Shown here piece by piece: positions 3,449-30,801 of a stretch of DNA of 64,000 bases. Position numbers and translations under genes: made by a program. The notes under the pieces were generated by a model, which saw only the letters and a program-made list of their open reading frames with translations, was not told the origin of the DNA and did not search any database. The stretch lies in the NCBI GenBank assembly GCA_016936235.1, contig JAFGPK010000005.1:1-64000 (forward strand), read 5' to 3'. Origin of the DNA: Candidatus Fermentibacteraceae bacterium. Its GTDB lineage: Bacteria; Fermentibacterota; Fermentibacteria; Fermentibacterales; JCC-6. How positions within the stretch are numbered: the first letter of the stretch is position 1; each line of letters begins with the position of its first letter.

Positions 3449-4419
3449 CCGGCGGACAGATCCACCCTGAAGGGCATGCTGCCGCAGGATGCAAGGGCAT
3501 TGATGGAACCGGCGATCTGACGGGCTCTTTCCATCTCCAGTGCTTCAGTCCCGAAACCGCCGCCCATGTGCGGTGTCATCACTATGTTGTCCAGTGAGGC
3601 GAGATCGTGGCGGGACGGCGGAGTGCACGTCCTCTCATCCTCCGATTCCGGGTACCTGTACCAGACGTCTATTCCAGCGGCACCTATGGAGCCGCTGGAA
3701 AGGCTTCTGTAGAGGGCGTCCTCATCCACAAGCCCGCCCCTGCCGATGTTCACCAGTACGGACTTCTCATGCAGTAGACCCAGTTCCTGTTCTCCAATTA
3801 TGCCAACGGTATCGTCGGTAAGGGGAAGTGTCAGTACAAGCACATCCGTATACGGGAGAAGCCTGTGAAGTGAAGCAGCAGGCAGAATCCGGACGCCGTC
3901 TTCCACCGTCTCCGAGACCGCGCTTCGCCTTATGCCCGTGACAGAGGCCCCCAGGGCGCGGGCGGCCCTGCCGACCCTGCTCCCGATGTGTCCGTAGCCG
4001 AGGATAAGGACGGCGCTCCCGCAGATGAGAAGGCGGCCCTCCTGCCGGTACCTCCATGACCAGTCACCCTTTCTGAGCTCCCTGTCGGCGGGGATTATGA
4101 GCCTTGCGGCGGCTATCATCAGACCCAGGGCGAGTTCTGCGGCTGAATCGGCATTGTGGTGTATGTTGTGAACGGAGATATGCGGATGGTCCATCATGAG
4201 GAGGCGGGTACTCCGGGGCAGCCCTGCCCAGGGAAGAAGAAGGTGGGTGAGACGGGAGGAGCGTGCGATGAGGTCCGCGTCGGGTCTTCCCGAAACGAGT
4301 ACATCGCAGTCGGCTGAAGAGCTGTCGGGCAGGATGGTCACCTCTTTCAGAAGGAGCGATTCGAGATGCCTCAGCATCTCCGGTGACCATTGCACATCGA
4401 GGAAAACCCTCAGCTCCAA
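3442..4419 (-). CDS. D-isomer-specific 2-hydroxyacid dehydrogenase, NAD-binding
   Basis: Rossmann motif VLILGYGHIGSRVGRAARALG; VNIGRGGLVDEDAL; MTPHMGG. Confidence 0.85.
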   Translation of the reverse strand: MELRVFLDVQWSPEMLRHLESLLLKEVTILPDSSSADCDVLVSGRPDADLIARSSRLTHLLLPWAGLPRSTRLLMMDHPHISVHNIHHNADSAAELALGLMIAAARLIIPADRELRKGDWSWRYRQEGRLLICGSAVLILGYGHIGSRVGRAARALGASVTGIRRSAVSETVEDGVRILPAASLHRLLPYTDVLVLTLPLTDDTVGIIGEQELGLLHEKSVLVNIGRGGLVDEDALYRSLSSGSIGAAGIDVWYRYPESEDERTCTPPSRHDLASLDNIVMTPHMGGGFGTEALEMERARQIAGSINALASCGSMPFRVDLSAGY

Positions 4420-4548
4420 AATCCCTCCTCGATTCGACGTTTATTCCGCTCACACTGGAACTCCTTTGCCGTATTGAATATCATATGAACAGGGACATCG
4501 TTTTCATAACCCGAGGGTCCGGCCGGCACCTAACAGGGGAGGAAAGAA

Positions 4549-4965
4549 GTGAAGGTCCACGGCAAGACGATCACTGTGAACACCCGGGGCTTCTCGGACA
4601 TCGTGAACCTGGGGACCGAGGTCCAGTCCGTCGTGAGCGATTCCGGAGCGGATGACGGGCTCGTGACTGTAACGGTCATCGGCTCCACGGCTTCGGTCAC
4701 CACCATGGAGTACGAACCCGCTCTCGTGGAGGACATGCGGGAGCTCCTGGAGAAGCTGGTCCCGCGGAACATCCCCTCGAGACACTCGGAGACCTGGGGG
4801 GATGACAACGGCTTTTCCCATATGAGGGCATCCCTGATGGGACCAGGGATCACTCTTCCCGTGGCGGACGGAAGGGTACTGACGGGCACATGGCAGCAGA
4901 TCGTCCTCGTGGACCACGACAACCGTCCGAGGAGGAGGGAAGTAAGGATACAGGTACTCGGATGA
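4549..4965 (+). CDS. YjbQ/UPF0047 family protein (secondary thiamine-phosphate synthase-like)
   Basis: STASVTTMEYEPALVEDM, WGDDNGFSHMRASLMGPGITLPVADGRVLTGTWQQIVLVDHDNRPRRREV. Confidence 0.88.
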   Translation: MKVHGKTITVNTRGFSDIVNLGTEVQSVVSDSGADDGLVTVTVIGSTASVTTMEYEPALVEDMRELLEKLVPRNIPSRHSETWGDDNGFSHMRASLMGPGITLPVADGRVLTGTWQQIVLVDHDNRPRRREVRIQVLG

Positions 4966-4972
4966 GTCCCGG

Positions 4973-5001
4973 TTGCTGAAAGCATCCGCCCGGTTTATCA
5001 T
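4973..5001 (+). promoter_or_regulatory. Putative sigma70 promoter for the lipoprotein gene at 5044
   Basis: TTGCTG (4973-4978), 17-nt spacer, TATCAT (4996-5001), 43 nt before the start codon. Confidence 0.45.
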
Positions 5002-5043
5002 ATTTCCGGTGCCGTTCCATATCGAGGGGCTCGACAGAGAGGA

Positions 5044-6027
5044 ATGATAATGCTCACAGGATCCGGAGGACTGATTCGCTCAGGCCTGTTCATGACATCG
5101 GTCCTGGCAGTTCTCATGGCCGCGGGATGCATTTTCGATTCTGAACCGGAGGAACCCGGCTTTCCGTCCCAGCTCGATGCCACCATCTCCTTCCAGGCAA
5201 TAGGCGACCCGGTCCTGTGCAAGTGCATGTCGGGATCCGGTCTGGCACTGGTGGCAGCCGGAACCAGCTTGGGAGTCATCGACATACAATCGGGACAGAG
5301 TCCCGTAGAACTCGCCCTGGGGGTGGAGATAGACGATATAGCCGACAGCGATGCGGCTGGTTACGCCTGGGTGCTGGCCGACTCCCTGCTCTATCCGGTC
5401 GATCTGTCCGGACCTTCCCTTGAAAGCCCCGTCAGGCTGGGGGGAGGGGGAAGCTTCGTGACCGTTTCATCAGCGGGGAACCGGGCCCTTGTCTCCATGA
5501 ACGATGACAGTATAACCCTGGTGGACCTGACAGGGATGCAGGTGACGACCCTTGCGGAACTCCAGATACGGGCCTGTCAGGGGATGGCCTTCGGAGGCGA
5601 TGAGACCGTATACGCCGCACTGGGTTCGGAGGGCGTCATCGCCGGATACGAGACGGAGAACTGGACGGAGATCGGGCGGGTATCCGTCCCTGGTGATGTG
5701 ATAGACCTCTTTCCCGGACCATCGGGGTATATCTGCGTGATTGTGAACGGCAGCAACGAGCTGTGGTTCATCAGGACCAGCGACTGCAAGCTGTACAGTA
5801 TGACCACCTTCCCCGAGACGCCACTGGCTGCGGCGTCGATGCCGGACGGCTCTTTCGCATACGCGACATGCGCTGGAAGCGGGCTCATGGTGGTTGCCGA
5901 GAACGGACAGATCGAGCTGCGCAGCCAGCAGTTCGGAATGCCTTCAAGCATTGACATCTCGCCTGACGGATCCAGGGCCGTGCTCTGCTCGACGGATGAG
6001 CGCAGGGTTTACGTACTTGTGAAGTAG
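5044..6027 (+). CDS. Lipoprotein with beta-propeller-like repeats
   Basis: Lipobox-like LMAAGC; repetitive beta-rich sequence ending ISPDGSRAVLCSTDERRVYVL. Confidence 0.65.
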   Translation: MIMLTGSGGLIRSGLFMTSVLAVLMAAGCIFDSEPEEPGFPSQLDATISFQAIGDPVLCKCMSGSGLALVAAGTSLGVIDIQSGQSPVELALGVEIDDIADSDAAGYAWVLADSLLYPVDLSGPSLESPVRLGGGGSFVTVSSAGNRALVSMNDDSITLVDLTGMQVTTLAELQIRACQGMAFGGDETVYAALGSEGVIAGYETENWTEIGRVSVPGDVIDLFPGPSGYICVIVNGSNELWFIRTSDCKLYSMTTFPETPLAAASMPDGSFAYATCAGSGLMVVAENGQIELRSQQFGMPSSIDISPDGSRAVLCSTDERRVYVLVK

Positions 6028-24344: not shown

Positions 24345-26015
24345 TTGTCCAGAAGGTTTATAATAGGAGTGGAATTCCTGACCGGGCTGTCCATAGGCGC
24401 GGCTGCGGCAGCGGCTGCCGTGGCTTTCATGACTGCGTTCCTGGTCAACAGGGACCTGGGGGCCCAGTCCGGTCATATGGCCACGGTAACCGCATTCGCA
24501 CTGGGCCGTTCAATAGAGGATGATCCCGTGGAACAGCTGGGGAGAGTGGCAGACCCCCTTGTAAGGAGCGGAAGCCTTGAGGCAGCCGTGGTCCTGGATC
24601 AGGCAGGGAGGGTAGTGGCAGCCTCCGGCGATTCCGGTTCCGAAGCTCCGGTGCCCGGGGAATCGGACGAATGGTACTTCGCCGAGCTCCCCGGCAGCGG
24701 TCTCATTGTGGGTGTCAGACCGGGTATGTCATCGATCGCATCGGTCTACAACGTATTGATCACAGGTCTGGCCGCTCTGACTGCCGCACTGGCGGTCCTC
24801 GCATTCTTCACTCCAAGGTACCTTTCCCGAACCGTGATCTCGCCTCTCCGCGAGATACTTGTGGAAGCTGACCGGTTCACCAGCGGGGGAGGTATCGATC
24901 CCGAAACGGCGGGAGCTTCCTTCCACCGTCTGGTAGAGCTCCTCCACGAGCGGGAGAGACAGCTGAACGAGATGAAGGAGAGAGCGGAGGAGAGGGCGGA
25001 GAGGATAGAGAAGAGGTCAGCGGCCATACTCTCGGTGCTGGGCTCAGCGGTGCTGGCCATGGATTCCGAAGGGAAGCTCCTGCTCTTCAATCGTCAGTCA
25101 AGGGAGCTGTTCAGTCTTGATTACGGTGATATCGGGAGTGAGTTCCCATGGCAGAGGACCGAGGCGGGAAGGAAGCTGAAACCCCTGCTGGATCGCGGCG
25201 GTGACGAGGGTGTCTCATCCGGGGAGTTCCAGCTGGCAGGGGATAAGGGCAGGATCGATCGCATCTTTACCGTTGAGATCTCCCGCTCGAGGGGGGACGA
25301 GATAGCCGTCCTCGTGACTGATGTGACAAGGATCGGGGAACTGGAGAGGCGGATAGCCGACCAGACGGCAATGGCGGACCTTGGAGCTGCTTCGGCCGGC
25401 ATATCCCACGAGATGGGAAACACCCTGTGCGCCCTGTCGGGTTTCGTGGACCTGCTGGCCAGAGGACACTCGGATACCAGGACCGGCAACATCCTGGCGG
25501 AGGTGAGAAGAGAGGTCAACTCGGCCCGGTCGCTCATCAACTCATTCGGCAGCTTTGCGCGGTCGCCGGAACCCGAGGCATGCCGGATCTCCGCCGGCGA
25601 CCTGGAGGCGGCCATGAAGGATGTCTGCGGCGGATTTCCGGAGAGGTGCTCGGTTTCGGTAAACACGGGCGAGATAAGACTCAACGCCGATATCAAACTG
25701 ATCTCATCATGCCTTCGTAACCTTGTCCGGAACGCGGTGGAGGCTCATCCGTCCTCAAGCATCCGTGTGAGCGTCACTTCTTCCGGAGGCAACGTCATCA
25801 TCTCCGTCGCCGATTCCGGTCCGGGTCTTCCCATGGACTGCGAGGAGGTCTTCAGACCTTTCCGCTCCACCAAGGACAGGAGCAGCGGCAACATGGGACT
25901 GGGGCTTTCGGTGAGCAGGAGGATAATCAGGGCCATGGGCGGAGAGCTCAGCGGCAGGAACCGCGACGAGGGGGGGGCGGTGTTCGAGATAGTGCTTCCC
26001 CTGGACTCATCCTAG
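24345..26015 (+). CDS. Sensor histidine kinase, NtrB-like with PAS-like region
   Basis: Two TM segments; AGISHEMGNTLCALSGF (H-box); LRNLVRNAVEAHPSS (N-box); DSGPGLP; GNMGLGLSVSRRI. Confidence 0.9.
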   Translation: MSRRFIIGVEFLTGLSIGAAAAAAAVAFMTAFLVNRDLGAQSGHMATVTAFALGRSIEDDPVEQLGRVADPLVRSGSLEAAVVLDQAGRVVAASGDSGSEAPVPGESDEWYFAELPGSGLIVGVRPGMSSIASVYNVLITGLAALTAALAVLAFFTPRYLSRTVISPLREILVEADRFTSGGGIDPETAGASFHRLVELLHERERQLNEMKERAEERAERIEKRSAAILSVLGSAVLAMDSEGKLLLFNRQSRELFSLDYGDIGSEFPWQRTEAGRKLKPLLDRGGDEGVSSGEFQLAGDKGRIDRIFTVEISRSRGDEIAVLVTDVTRIGELERRIADQTAMADLGAASAGISHEMGNTLCALSGFVDLLARGHSDTRTGNILAEVRREVNSARSLINSFGSFARSPEPEACRISAGDLEAAMKDVCGGFPERCSVSVNTGEIRLNADIKLISSCLRNLVRNAVEAHPSSSIRVSVTSSGGNVIISVADSGPGLPMDCEEVFRPFRSTKDRSSGNMGLGLSVSRRIIRAMGGELSGRNRDEGGAVFEIVLPLDSS

Positions 26016-26022
26016 GAGGTTC

Positions 26023-27297
26023 ATGATGGACAGCATACTGCTGGTGGAAGACAAGCGCGCCATGCGCAACATGCTCACCACGGCCCTCAGGGAGGACGGG
26101 TGGAACGTAATCGCAGCGTCCTCGGGCGCCGAGGCCATCAGCAAGCTGGGATGCGGGAGCACGGCCCTGGTGCTCAGCGACATATGCCTCCCCGGTGAGA
26201 TCAGCGGAATGGACATACTCAGGAGGTCAAGGGAGCTCAACCACTGGGTTCCCGTGGTTCTCATGACGGCATTCGGGACCGTGGACCTTGCCGTGGAGGC
26301 GATGAAGGAAGGGGCCCGGGATTTCATAACCAAGCCCTTCGATCTGGACGAGCTACTGGCAATGGTCCGGAGGTATTCCAACTCCGCGGGAACCGAACTC
26401 GTAGGTTCCTCGCCTTCCCTGATGGCGACATTGAGGAGGGTCTCGAAAGGAGCGGAGACTAACCTGAACATACTCATACTGGGAGAGAGCGGCACGGGAA
26501 AGGAACTCCTTGCAAGGCTGATACACAGGGAAAGCTCCCGCAGTGAAGGGCCCTTCGTCCCGGTCAACTGCGCCGCAATTCCGGCAGACCTCCTCGAGAG
26601 CGAACTCTTCGGAGCGGAGAAGGGCGCTTACACCGGTGCCGACAGGACTCGGCCGGGAAGGTTCGAACACGCACAGGGAGGGTCGATCTTTCTCGACGAG
26701 GTGGGAGACCTGGACAGGACCCTGCAGGGCAAACTGCTGCGGGTGCTTCAGGAAAGGGAATACACCAGAGTGGGGGGGACCGAGATATTCCACACCAACG
26801 CCAGGGTCATCTCCGCAAGCAACCGTGACCTTAAACGCGAGACGGAGGAGGGTAGGTTCAGGGACGACCTCTATTTCAGGATAGGGGAGTTCCCGGTCTC
26901 GATATCTCCCCTCAGGGACAGGTCGGAGGATGTGCCGCTCCTGGCGCGACACTTCCTTGACCGGTCAGGCTACTCCAGGATAGAGATAACGGATGATGCG
27001 ATGGAGAAACTGAAGGCTTTCCGATGGCCCGGCAATGTACGTCAGCTCAGGAGCATCGTCCTCCGGGCGGCGGCTCTGGCCGACGGGCCTGTACTGGGTC
27101 CTGACAACCTCGAGATAGAGGGTCCTGACAGGGAGACTGGGCTCCTTGAACAGTCTGCCAGGGCAGCCAGGGACAGGGAAGTGCAACTGATAAGAAGAGC
27201 CCTGAGGGAGACCGGCGGGAACAGGAAGAAGGCGGCTGAGCTGCTGAAGGTCAGCTACAGGACCCTGCTGTCACGTCTTAAGGAGCTTGACCTCTGA
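26023..27297 (+). CDS. Sigma-54-dependent response regulator (NtrC family)
   Basis: Receiver SDICLPG; AAA+ GESGTGKELLARLIH; ELFGAEKGAYTGAD; C-term Fis-type HTH TGGNRKKAAELLKVSYRTLLSRLKEL. Confidence 0.95.
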   Translation: MMDSILLVEDKRAMRNMLTTALREDGWNVIAASSGAEAISKLGCGSTALVLSDICLPGEISGMDILRRSRELNHWVPVVLMTAFGTVDLAVEAMKEGARDFITKPFDLDELLAMVRRYSNSAGTELVGSSPSLMATLRRVSKGAETNLNILILGESGTGKELLARLIHRESSRSEGPFVPVNCAAIPADLLESELFGAEKGAYTGADRTRPGRFEHAQGGSIFLDEVGDLDRTLQGKLLRVLQEREYTRVGGTEIFHTNARVISASNRDLKRETEEGRFRDDLYFRIGEFPVSISPLRDRSEDVPLLARHFLDRSGYSRIEITDDAMEKLKAFRWPGNVRQLRSIVLRAAALADGPVLGPDNLEIEGPDRETGLLEQSARAARDREVQLIRRALRETGGNRKKAAELLKVSYRTLLSRLKELDL

Positions 27298-27342: not shown

Positions 27343-27371
27343 TTGTTTCCCCGGGCTTGCTGAAATATAAT
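27343..27371 (+). promoter_or_regulatory. Sigma70-type promoter for gatE-gatD
   Basis: TTGTTT (27343-27348), 17-nt spacer, TATAAT (27366-27371). Confidence 0.65.
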
Positions 27372-27463
27372 TGAGCTCTGTTCACAGATTGCTCCCGCTC
27401 TTTCCGAATTCGAAGGATATCCATTGTTCATTGCCGGAAATACTGAAAGGAGCCCGTTCCATC

Positions 27464-29410
27464 GTGATCAGGAGACTGGATGAGACCTCCCCGTCGGATT
27501 ACCTGGAGATAGGCCTTCGAAGCGGTCTCGAGATACATCAGCAGCTGGACACCGAGAAGAAGCTGTTCTGCCGCTGTCCTGTCCTTCCCTATAGAGATGA
27601 CTATGACGCCCAGGTCCTGAGGCACATGAGGCCCACCCTGTCGGAACTCGGTGAATACGACGGCACGGCCCTCATGGAATTCAAGACCAGGAAGAACATC
27701 ATCTACCAGATAAACAAGAACACCATATGCACGTACGAGATAGACGACACCCCGCCTTTCGAGCTCAACCGGCAGGCCCTGGAGTTCGGACTGGAGATAA
27801 CCATGCTCCTGAACTGCAAGCTTGTGAGCGAGATACATGTCCAGAGGAAGCAGTACCTGGACGGATCCATTCCCGCGGGTTTCCAGAGGACCACCATTCT
27901 GGGGGTGGACGGATGGATACCTTTCGGTGACAGAAGGATAAACATCATCCAGCTCGGTCTCGAGGAGGATGCCTGCAGAGAAGTCAGCGACAGGGGTCAC
28001 CTGAGGGTCTACCTGACGGACAGGCTGGGCATACCCCTGATAGAGACCGTGACCGCCCCCGAGATGAGGACTCCGCATGAGGTGGCCCAGGTTGCCAGGA
28101 TCCTCAGCAACCTCGCCAGGGCTTCGGGCAAGGTCCGCCGCGGCATTGGAGCGGCGAGACAGGACGTAAACGTCTCCGTGGAAGGCGGTAGAAGGGTGGA
28201 GATCAAGGGAGTGTCGCGTATCCCGGAGATCCCTCTTCTCGTCCACAACGAGGCTTTCAGACAGGTGTCATTGCTGGAGATAAAGGCTGAACTGGGAAGA
28301 AGGGGGATAGGGGATACAGATTTCAGCCATAAGGTGCTCGATCAGACCGGTGAGCTAGCCGGGACCTCCTACCCTCCGGCGGCTTCCGCCCTGAAGCAGG
28401 GACATCGGCTGAGGTCGGTGCTCCTCAGGGGGTATTCCGGTCTGCTCTCCGTACCGACGCAGCCAGGGAAGACATTCGCTGACGAGATCTCCGACAGGGT
28501 CAGGGTGATCGCGTGCCTCGACACCCTTCCGAACATCGTGCACGATGGCGGCGGGGGGGAGAGCTTCTCCGGCGCGGAATGGGAAATTCTGAAGCGGAAC
28601 GCCTCCTTCCGTCCCGAGGATGCACTGGTGGTGGTATGGGGATCGCCGGAGGACCTTGAGACAGCGGTGGGGGAGATAGCCATAAGGGCCAGGGAGGCCA
28701 TCGACGGAGTCATCAACGAGACCAGGCAGTCACTGCCTGACGGGACCAACGGTTTCGAGCGCATCCTGCCGGGTCCCAACAGGATGTACCCCGACACGGA
28801 CCTTCCACCCATCGCCATAGGGAACGAACTGATCGGCAGGATAACCTCCGGATTGCCGGAAAGGCCCTGGGAACGCGAGGAAAGGTACGTGACCGCCGGA
28901 GCGGCACCTGAATCGGCAAGGCAGATGAGCATCTCCCCCCTGAGGGACCTCTACGATGAGGCCCTGAAAGTGTCCGATTACTCCCCGGGGGAACTCATGC
29001 ATTTCTTCCTCAGCACGCTGAGCCATCTGAAGAAAAGAATCGACGTGCGGGAAGTGCCTGGAGACGTCCTCCTGCATGTACTCTCCGCCACCGGTGATTC
29101 GGGGCTTCCCCTCGAAGCCGCGGCTGCCGTCCTCAGGAGCGTATGCATACCCGGGGGGATTAACATCTCCGATGCACTGAAAGCACTGGAAATCCCCGGA
29201 GACGACGAGATCAGGAAGATGGCGGGTGACCTGGTCCGTGAGATGGACACGGAGACAATGGGGGAAGGCGCTCTCGCGCGCCGCCTGACAGGCATGATCG
29301 TCGAGAAATCCGGTTTTCTGGCGAAAGGCGCAAGGGTCACGGAGATAGTCAGGGAGTTCATCCCCGCCGGCAGCGAGTTCGCTGCCTCTTCTCGGAACAG
29401 CAGGAGGTGA
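27464..29410 (+). CDS. gatE: Glutamyl-tRNA(Gln) amidotransferase subunit E (archaeal-type)
   Basis: DYLEIGLRSGLEIHQQLDTEKKLFCRCP; YEIDDTPPFELNRQALEFGLEI; MYPDTDLPPI; adjacent to gatD. ORF-track start 27371 overlaps the -10 box; GTG 27464 has AAAGGAG upstream. Confidence 0.92.
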   Translation: MIRRLDETSPSDYLEIGLRSGLEIHQQLDTEKKLFCRCPVLPYRDDYDAQVLRHMRPTLSELGEYDGTALMEFKTRKNIIYQINKNTICTYEIDDTPPFELNRQALEFGLEITMLLNCKLVSEIHVQRKQYLDGSIPAGFQRTTILGVDGWIPFGDRRINIIQLGLEEDACREVSDRGHLRVYLTDRLGIPLIETVTAPEMRTPHEVAQVARILSNLARASGKVRRGIGAARQDVNVSVEGGRRVEIKGVSRIPEIPLLVHNEAFRQVSLLEIKAELGRRGIGDTDFSHKVLDQTGELAGTSYPPAASALKQGHRLRSVLLRGYSGLLSVPTQPGKTFADEISDRVRVIACLDTLPNIVHDGGGGESFSGAEWEILKRNASFRPEDALVVVWGSPEDLETAVGEIAIRAREAIDGVINETRQSLPDGTNGFERILPGPNRMYPDTDLPPIAIGNELIGRITSGLPERPWEREERYVTAGAAPESARQMSISPLRDLYDEALKVSDYSPGELMHFFLSTLSHLKKRIDVREVPGDVLLHVLSATGDSGLPLEAAAAVLRSVCIPGGINISDALKALEIPGDDEIRKMAGDLVREMDTETMGEGALARRLTGMIVEKSGFLAKGARVTEIVREFIPAGSEFAASSRNSRR

Positions 29411-30801
29411 TCCGGGTGTCATCCGACCGTTACAAGGGTTACAGAGGAAGAAGTCTCGACTGCCTGAGAAAATTCGATGCCGGCGTCTGGTCCGACGTGG
29501 AGATCAGGTCATCCAGGGGTGATTTCAGGGGCGTGATCCTCCCGAGGTCCGAGACTGCCGACGACGCGCACATCGTGCTCAAGATACACAATGGCTACAA
29601 TATCGGGATCGACGTGGACACCGTAGAGTCAATAACCGAATTCGGCAGGATCGAGGCGCACTACAAGATACCCGAAAAGGAGTTTCCCTTCGATCCGGGA
29701 AAACCGAATGTCAAACTCTTCGGCACCGGCGGAACGATCGCCTCCAGGCTGGATTACAGGACCGGGGCGGTGATACCCGCCTTCTCTCCGGGGGAACTCT
29801 ACGGATCGGTCCCGGAGCTGGCGGACATATGCAATCTCAGGACGGAGAAGCTCTACGGGGTTTTCAGCGAGAACATGGGGCCGGAACAGTGGAAGGGAAC
29901 GGCGGAAGCCATAGGCAGGGAGATAGAGAACGGGGTGGACGGCATAGTCATAGGCCATGGCACCGACACGATGCACCATACCGCCGCAATCCTGTCTTTC
30001 ATGGTTCAGGATCCGCCTGTCCCCATCGTCATGGTGGGTTCCCAGCGTTCCAGCGACAGGCCTTCCAGCGACGCGGCCCTTAACCTTATGAACGCCACCT
30101 ATGCAGCCGCCAGGAGCGACATAGCCGAAGTCATGGTCTGCATGTTCGGTCCCACCAGCGACCAGTACGGGCTCCTTCACAGGGGAACGAGGGTCAGGAA
30201 GATGCACTCGTCATACAGGTCCACGTTCAGGACCATAGGGGACATTCCACTTGCCATGGTGATGAAGGACGAGATCAGGGTACTCAAGGATGACCACAGA
30301 AAGCGAAGGAAGGATCGGACGGTGACCGTTAACACGGCATTCGACCCCAGGGTGTCCATAGTCTACTATTACCCGAACATGCAACCCGACATCATCGATT
30401 CCCTGATCGACAACGGATACAGAGGGATAGTCATCGCCGGCACCGGCCTGGGCCACGTCAACAAGCCTCTCTACCCGGCGCTGAAGAGAGCTTTCGATCA
30501 GGGAGTGCATGTATACATGACCGTCCAGACTCTATGGGGATACGTCCAGATGTTCGTCTACGACACCGGAAGGGACATGATGGACCTCGGCGTCATCCCG
30601 GCCTCCAACATGCTGCCGGAAGTCGCTTACATGAAACTCTGCTGGGCCCTGGGCCAGACCATGGACAGGGAGGAGGTCCGCAGGATAATGTGCACCCCTG
30701 TCGCGGGCGAGATTACGGAACGTGAGCCGCATAACGGATACATGATACTTCAGGGAGGCATCCCCGAGGTGGAGGAGTTCATCAGCAGGTACAACCGTTG
30801 A
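29407..30801 (+). CDS. gatD: Glutamyl-tRNA(Gln) amidotransferase subunit D (archaeal-type, asparaginase-like)
   Basis: AHIVLKIHNGYNIGIDVD N-terminal domain; LFGTGGTIASRLDYRTGAVIPAFSPGEL; VIGHGTDTMHHTAAILSFM; GSQRSSDRPSSDAALN; GYRGIVIAGTGLGHV. Confidence 0.94.
   Translation: MIRVSSDRYKGYRGRSLDCLRKFDAGVWSDVEIRSSRGDFRGVILPRSETADDAHIVLKIHNGYNIGIDVDTVESITEFGRIEAHYKIPEKEFPFDPGKPNVKLFGTGGTIASRLDYRTGAVIPAFSPGELYGSVPELADICNLRTEKLYGVFSENMGPEQWKGTAEAIGREIENGVDGIVIGHGTDTMHHTAAILSFMVQDPPVPIVMVGSQRSSDRPSSDAALNLMNATYAAARSDIAEVMVCMFGPTSDQYGLLHRGTRVRKMHSSYRSTFRTIGDIPLAMVMKDEIRVLKDDHRKRRKDRTVTVNTAFDPRVSIVYYYPNMQPDIIDSLIDNGYRGIVIAGTGLGHVNKPLYPALKRAFDQGVHVYMTVQTLWGYVQMFVYDTGRDMMDLGVIPASNMLPEVAYMKLCWALGQTMDREEVRRIMCTPVAGEITEREPHNGYMILQGGIPEVEEFISRYNR

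Follow-up and report, generated by a model that had tools for sequence, protein, structure and literature searches.

The genome of a bacterium of the genus Aegiribacteria (Fermentibacterota) contains a genuine archaeal-type GatDE pair, and many other bacterial genomes also combine GatDE with GlnRS and a bacterial tRNA-Gln. The host does not depend on GatDE for its Gln-tRNA, since a canonical GlnRS is present. Judging from the sequences, we give about even chances to a functional bacterial GatDE which would provide a second route to Gln-tRNA, or repair Glu-tRNA(Gln), beside GlnRS.

These results contrast with published descriptions. Two 2022 reviews call GatDE archaea-only, and in one of them it is named an archaeal signature protein (PMC8762117, PMC9499178). 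In PMC9499178, archaeal tRNA-Gln is characterized by A1-U72 and A73, and it is argued that the co-evolution of GatDE and archaeal tRNA-Gln has kept GlnRS out of archaea. The coexistence of GatDE and GlnRS is also relevant to the proposal that the ancestors of bacteria were GatCAB-only populations. An earlier report of bacterial GatDE outside the open-licence literature is possible, and pipelines which use equivalog models will already annotate the bacterial gatD and gatE genes. In any case, these bacteria are natural systems for asking why two Gln-tRNA routes persist, or what else GatDE does.

The gatE-gatD locus

The features of the locus are shown in Table 1, with positions in the window, that is, the whole stretch of 64,000 nt that was analyzed. 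The arrangement of gatE followed by gatD is as described in the first-pass annotation, and the overlap between both genes is real. The best start of gatE is a GTG codon which is common to its relatives in the alignment, while the longer reading frame from TTG begins within the proposed -10 box. The letters TTGTTT-17-TATAAT, previously described as a good promoter, are indeed present, but the -35 box matches the consensus in only three of its six positions and the site does not appear in the list given by a consensus scan. Two promoter-like sites are found in the region, when 1.4 are expected by chance. This sigma70 promoter has been rejected, as it does not rise above chance level. A sigma54 promoter near gatE was also rejected, with 17 matches in the window against 22.8 expected.

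Table 1. Features of the gatE-gatD locus (positions in the window).
Feature	Position	Strand	Remarks
gatE	27464..29410	+	648 aa from best start GTG 27464; longest ORF from TTG 27371 (27371-29410)
gatD	29407..30801	+	464 aa; glutaminase/asparaginase-like subunit; overlaps gatE by 4 nt (29407-29410)
Shine-Dalgarno-like AAAGGAG	27446..27452	+	11 nt before GTG 27464; proposed from the sequence
TTGTTT-17-TATAAT, promoter of the first-pass annotation	27343..27371	+	weak -35; at chance level
Histidine kinase and sigma54-type response regulator (NtrB/NtrC-like), upstream	24345..27297	+	neighbours only

The neighbouring genes are bacterial, as noted before, and the order ntrC-like, gatE, gatD, hpf is repeated in independent genomes of Aegiribacteria (L107, L109). 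The likeness of the upstream two-component genes to ntrB and ntrC stands. Nevertheless, the regulator upstream of gatE is below the ntrC cut-off, so that these genes are only NtrB/NtrC-like and a true NtrC is not supported. The GC content of the gatE-gatD locus is similar to that of its surroundings. A contig made chimeric by archaeal DNA, an objection raised in the first-pass annotation, is ruled out by these observations: the neighbours are bacterial, and the same gene order recurs in independent genomes. As GatDE is also common in the phylum, the locus is neither contamination nor a private acquisition.

In six loci (L110, L111, L112, L113, L114 and L115) glnA is found directly upstream of gatE-gatD. 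Among their hosts are Aegiribacteria (L110), Krumholzibacteriota (L111, L112 and L113) and Latescibacteria (L114). Four of the six upstream glutamine synthetases were scanned, and these exceed the type I GlnA cut-off; in L112 and L113 the identity of glnA rests on position and sequence likeness. Only gatD is a general neighbour of gatE, with glnA in these six loci and no other gene conserved in general. The neighbours are thus of little use as a functional clue.

Identification of the proteins

The identification of this pair as GatDE is close to certain from sequence comparison. Both subunits exceed the cut-offs of NCBIfam equivalog models: GatE scores 481.9 bits with NF003107 (cut-off 456) and 421.6 with TIGR00134 (cut-off 319.55), while GatD scores 517.4 bits with TIGR02153 (cut-off 324). 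GatD contains the GatD_N domain and both Asparaginase domains. Its T110, T186, D187 and K265 align with T101, T177, D178 and K254 of the Methanothermobacter protein (2d6f_A), and we take these residues (Thr, Thr-Asp, Lys) to be catalytic. The first-pass annotation was right in recognizing a true GatDE pair. The catalytic core is also that of type I L-asparaginases, although GatD differs from them in its GatD_N domain and its GatE partner, and a separate asparaginase is found elsewhere in the genome.

GatE matches two archaeal GatE sequences over its whole length, 1zq1_C (5.5e-101) and 2d6f_C (7.5e-88), and archaeal GatE also provides the best PDB fold matches of its AlphaFold model (pLDDT 84). 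Archaeal GatDE, as in Methanothermobacter (2d6f) and Pyrococcus abyssi (1zq1), has the same equivalog-level subunits, catalytic residues and fold. The conserved cradle motifs of GatE are kept. All 38 type A GatE proteins have the GatB_N domain, 32 have GAD and 26 have GatB_Yqey, so that the GAD and YqeY regions of archaeal GatDE are also those of bacterial type A. When the GatE of the window is taken alone, GAD is only matched with E = 0.14 and YqeY is unmatched; the alignment reaches the end of the GatE models. The AspRS-like insert and the tail are the fastest-evolving parts of GatE, yet they are recognized in most members. In bacterial GatE, 99 near-invariant columns are shared with both archaeal sequences, while 52 are near-invariant but unlike both. 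Some motifs, such as YDGTALMEFK and CTYE-DDTPPF, are conserved in bacterial GatDE only.

Glutamine and asparagine enzymes in the host genome

The canonical GlnRS of the host scores 724 bits (cut-off 425.8), and its best PDB match is E. coli GlnRS (9e-219). AsnRS, LysRS, the asparagine synthetase AsnB (C67) and GlnA-family proteins are also present. The only AspRS found (L034 1480-2823, G000:C39) is of the archaeal type, which NCBIfam names non-discriminating, and it is accompanied by AsnRS. GatB was not found in this draft, which is 94% complete and on which all absences reported for the host rest: the GatE model matched only GatE, and this model recognizes GatB in control bacteria. The genome search proposed in the first-pass annotation for glnS, gatCAB and asnS has thus given GlnRS and AsnRS and no GatB. 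Its two suggestions, a lineage which uses GatDE to make Gln-tRNA(Gln) and a GatDE which works alongside a GatCAB devoted to Asn, are contradicted by the canonical GlnRS in the first case, and by the presence of AsnRS and the failure to find GatB in this 94% complete draft in the second.

A single GluRS was found, and the type of this enzyme, also raised earlier, can be given as bacterial. Its residue equivalent to Arg358 of T. thermophilus is again Arg, which we take to be a mark of discriminating GluRS, although the sequence alone does not settle discrimination. A tRNA-Glu (CTC) gene comes after the GluRS gene. The two tRNA-Gln genes have the bacterial U1-A72 and G73. A tRNA-Sec gene was also detected by ARAGORN (L103 147-243, G000:C4), and selenocysteine use may follow.

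The archaeal Gln-tRNA pathway is recognized by the lack of GlnRS in the genome and by a tRNA-Gln with A1-U72. Here GlnRS is present and tRNA-Gln has U1-A72. For this reason, the pair is GatDE by sequence, but we do not assign it to the archaeal pathway. An archaeal-type tRNA-Gln was rejected both for the host and for the other GatDE bacteria in which tRNA-Gln was read, as all have U1-A72. GatDE as the sole source of Gln or Asn was also rejected, in view of AsnB in the host and of a GlnA-family protein in all 42 genomes of the phylum.

Distribution in bacteria

GatDE is not peculiar to one unusual genome, as had been suggested. On the contrary, it is routine in Fermentibacterota, a situation which the first-pass annotation had named as contrary to its reading, and it is found in many other bacterial phyla. 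In the phylum, GatE is present in 35 of 42 genomes, and GatD is above cut-off in 33. Both genes co-occur in these 42 genomes, even when unlinked, and with few exceptions they are absent together. For example, neither gatD nor gatE was found in G012 and G041, two genomes of the same family, both more than 90% complete, which keep GlnRS. GlnRS is above cut-off in 37 of the 42 genomes, and most have a separate asparaginase.

Two genera of the same family (g3 and g4) and another family (f2) have a type B GatE of about 560 aa, without tail or recognizable GAD, and their gatD is unlinked (loci L014-L017, L019-L026 and L028-L030). Type B does not have the architecture of cradle, GAD insert and YqeY tail. 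It forms a long branch in the tree, but it is still under purifying selection (pN/pS 0.14). Its structure model (pLDDT 53) is too poor for use.

A scan of a public genome collection gave at least 587 confirmed stretches with GatE. The queries were peptides conserved in Fermentibacterota, so GatE of the archaeal kind in bacteria would be missed. The best 80 of these relatives are all bacterial according to the depositors' titles, from which the phylum labels are taken. More than twelve phyla are represented: Krumholzibacteriota, Latescibacterota, Zixibacteria, KSB1, Marinimicrobia, Ignavibacteria, Calditrichota, Bacteroidota, Kapabacteria, Aminicenantes, Acidobacteria, Elusimicrobia, Cloacimonetes, Planctomycetes, Gemmatimonadetes and Myxococcota. 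At 64 of these 80 loci, gatE has gatD within the next 400 nt; most of the others correspond to contig ends or interruptions.

In 50 GatDE genomes outside the phylum, all tallies being above cut-off, we found GlnRS without GatB (22), both (18), GatB without GlnRS (7) and neither (3); one of these last three has GatB in two pieces, and GlnRS and/or GatB are found in 48 of the 50. The tRNA-Gln genes read in other GatDE bacteria also have U1-A72, a pair taken from the sequences, where some genes have no CCA end. In several GatDE bacteria (L245, L246, L254 and L259) tRNA-Gln comes after a GluRS gene, in the form of tRNA-Gln (CTG) and then tRNA-Glu (CTC), or of tRNA-Gln (TTG). A draft of Neomarinimicrobiota (G062) shows GatDE but no GlnRS and no GatB, and of its two GluRS genes one lies next to tRNA-Gln. 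A bacterium which relies on GatDE for Gln-tRNA would be at most a rare case among these genomes, with G062 as the best candidate.

Neither gene is decaying, and gatD is under very strong purifying selection. In the closest pairs within the genus, dN/dS is 0.03–0.05 for gatD and 0.09–0.17 for gatE. The GatD of the window is 74–79% identical to that of other phyla, while the GlnRS proteins of the same genomes only reach 59–67%.

Possible functions

We infer Glu-tRNA(Gln) as the substrate, and a role in back-up or repair. Relaxed charging by GluRS would yield Glu-tRNA(Gln); GatD would free ammonia from glutamine (or asparagine), and GatE, using ATP, would activate the side-chain carboxylate of the tRNA-borne glutamate and then amidate it. 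The product would be Gln-tRNA(Gln), as a second route or as a repair step beside GlnRS, and GatDE would be adapted to the bacterial tRNA-Gln, which has U1-A72 and G73 where the archaeal one has A1-U72. This second route is the most likely reading because the fold, the catalytic residues and the tRNA-binding regions are kept. The equivalog matches, the conserved motifs, the type A architecture, the co-occurrence of GatD and GatE and the low dN/dS all argue for a functional enzyme, and the upstream glnA in six loci, the adjacency of GluRS and tRNA-Gln, the conservation of GatD above that of GlnRS and the case of G062 agree with a second route. On the other hand, a second route seems redundant where GlnRS and/or GatB are present, as in 48 of the 50 GatDE genomes outside the phylum, which fits poorly with the conservation of GatD. 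Arg at position 358 of GluRS, a tRNA-Gln without the A1-U72 read by archaeal GatDE, and the several genera of the phylum whose GatE has no tail or recognizable GAD also argue against it. A comparable case is GatCAB in Bdellovibrio and Deinococcus, also a tRNA-dependent amidotransferase kept despite direct synthetases. It is found beside GlnRS and AsnRS and serves Asn synthesis where asparagine synthetase is missing (PMC4206432). The present host differs in that its enzyme is GatDE, it has GlnA and AsnB, and GatB was not found.

The main rival is a changed substrate, a possible but rather unlikely reading in which GatDE amidates another carboxylate, unrelated to the decoding of Gln codons. The target would belong to glutamine or nitrogen metabolism and could be a different acyl-tRNA, a modified base of a tRNA or a molecule other than tRNA. 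This rival owes its place to the indifference of GatDE to the other Gln-tRNA enzymes, with which it coexists in every combination of GlnRS and GatCAB, and to a GatD more conserved than GlnRS. The 52 near-invariant columns unlike the archaeal sequences, the glnA-gatE-gatD cluster of several phyla and the persistence of purifying selection in type B point in the same direction. However, most type A proteins retain the GAD and YqeY parts associated with tRNA recognition, there is no candidate substrate, and the only conserved neighbours are gatD and sometimes glnA. A bolder and slightly more doubtful proposal is that a widespread bacterial GatDE subfamily may have left Gln-tRNA synthesis for an undescribed, strongly constrained glutamine-linked amidation, and that some Fermentibacterota have a form of it without the tail. 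It is improbable that GatDE replaces GatCAB in the amidation of Asp-tRNA(Asn) from the archaeal-type AspRS, a tRNA-dependent asparagine route like that of Deinococcus. The non-discriminating name of this single AspRS and the lack of a detected GatB in the draft would fit such a route, but AsnRS and AsnB are present, GatB also occurs in half of the other GatDE bacteria, and archaeal GatDE is not known to act on anything but Glu-tRNA(Gln). We give even less credit to a relic, or to GatD acting alone as a glutaminase or asparaginase: the pair seems dispensable in G012 and G041, but dN/dS is far below 1 for both genes, GatD accompanies GatE even when unlinked, and most genomes have a separate asparaginase. 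Least credible of all is the model of the first-pass annotation, a GatDE acquired from archaea as the organism's means of making Gln-tRNA(Gln). The pair is genuine and GatB was not found in the host draft, but this model is contradicted for the host genome by its GlnRS, canonical and widespread in the phylum, as well as by the bacterial tRNA-Gln and by a deep bacterial branch instead of a recent transfer; it could still apply only to genomes such as G062.

Origin of bacterial GatDE

A GatE tree was built from 99 bacterial and 3 archaeal sequences, which gives the comparison with archaeal homologs that had been proposed. All bacteria lie together on a single side of a long branch that is fully supported by SH-aLRT. 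The third archaeal row is partly out of frame, which inflates its branch, so the archaeal placement rests on two good sequences. The group of the window nests among Krumholzibacteriota and Latescibacterota. According to this tree, bacterial GatE is a family well separated from archaeal GatE. Bacterial GatDE thus differs from the archaeal one in its deep separate branch, its own motifs, and a host with GlnRS and a U1-A72, G73 tRNA-Gln. The ancient horizontal acquisition suggested previously is partly upheld: the tree agrees with an ancient origin or an ancient transfer but not with a recent one, and an archaeal donor cannot be named from three archaeal sequences.

Carriage by plasmids or viruses was rejected. 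No bacterial-type GatE from plasmids or viral contigs is found among the matches listed, where the only plasmid GatE is haloarchaeal: an unannotated and apparently frameshifted gatE in a Natrinema megaplasmid (CP031304.1; L223, about 3992-5854). The matches also include drafts labelled Caldithrix and Ignavibacterium, genera which presumably have cultured members.
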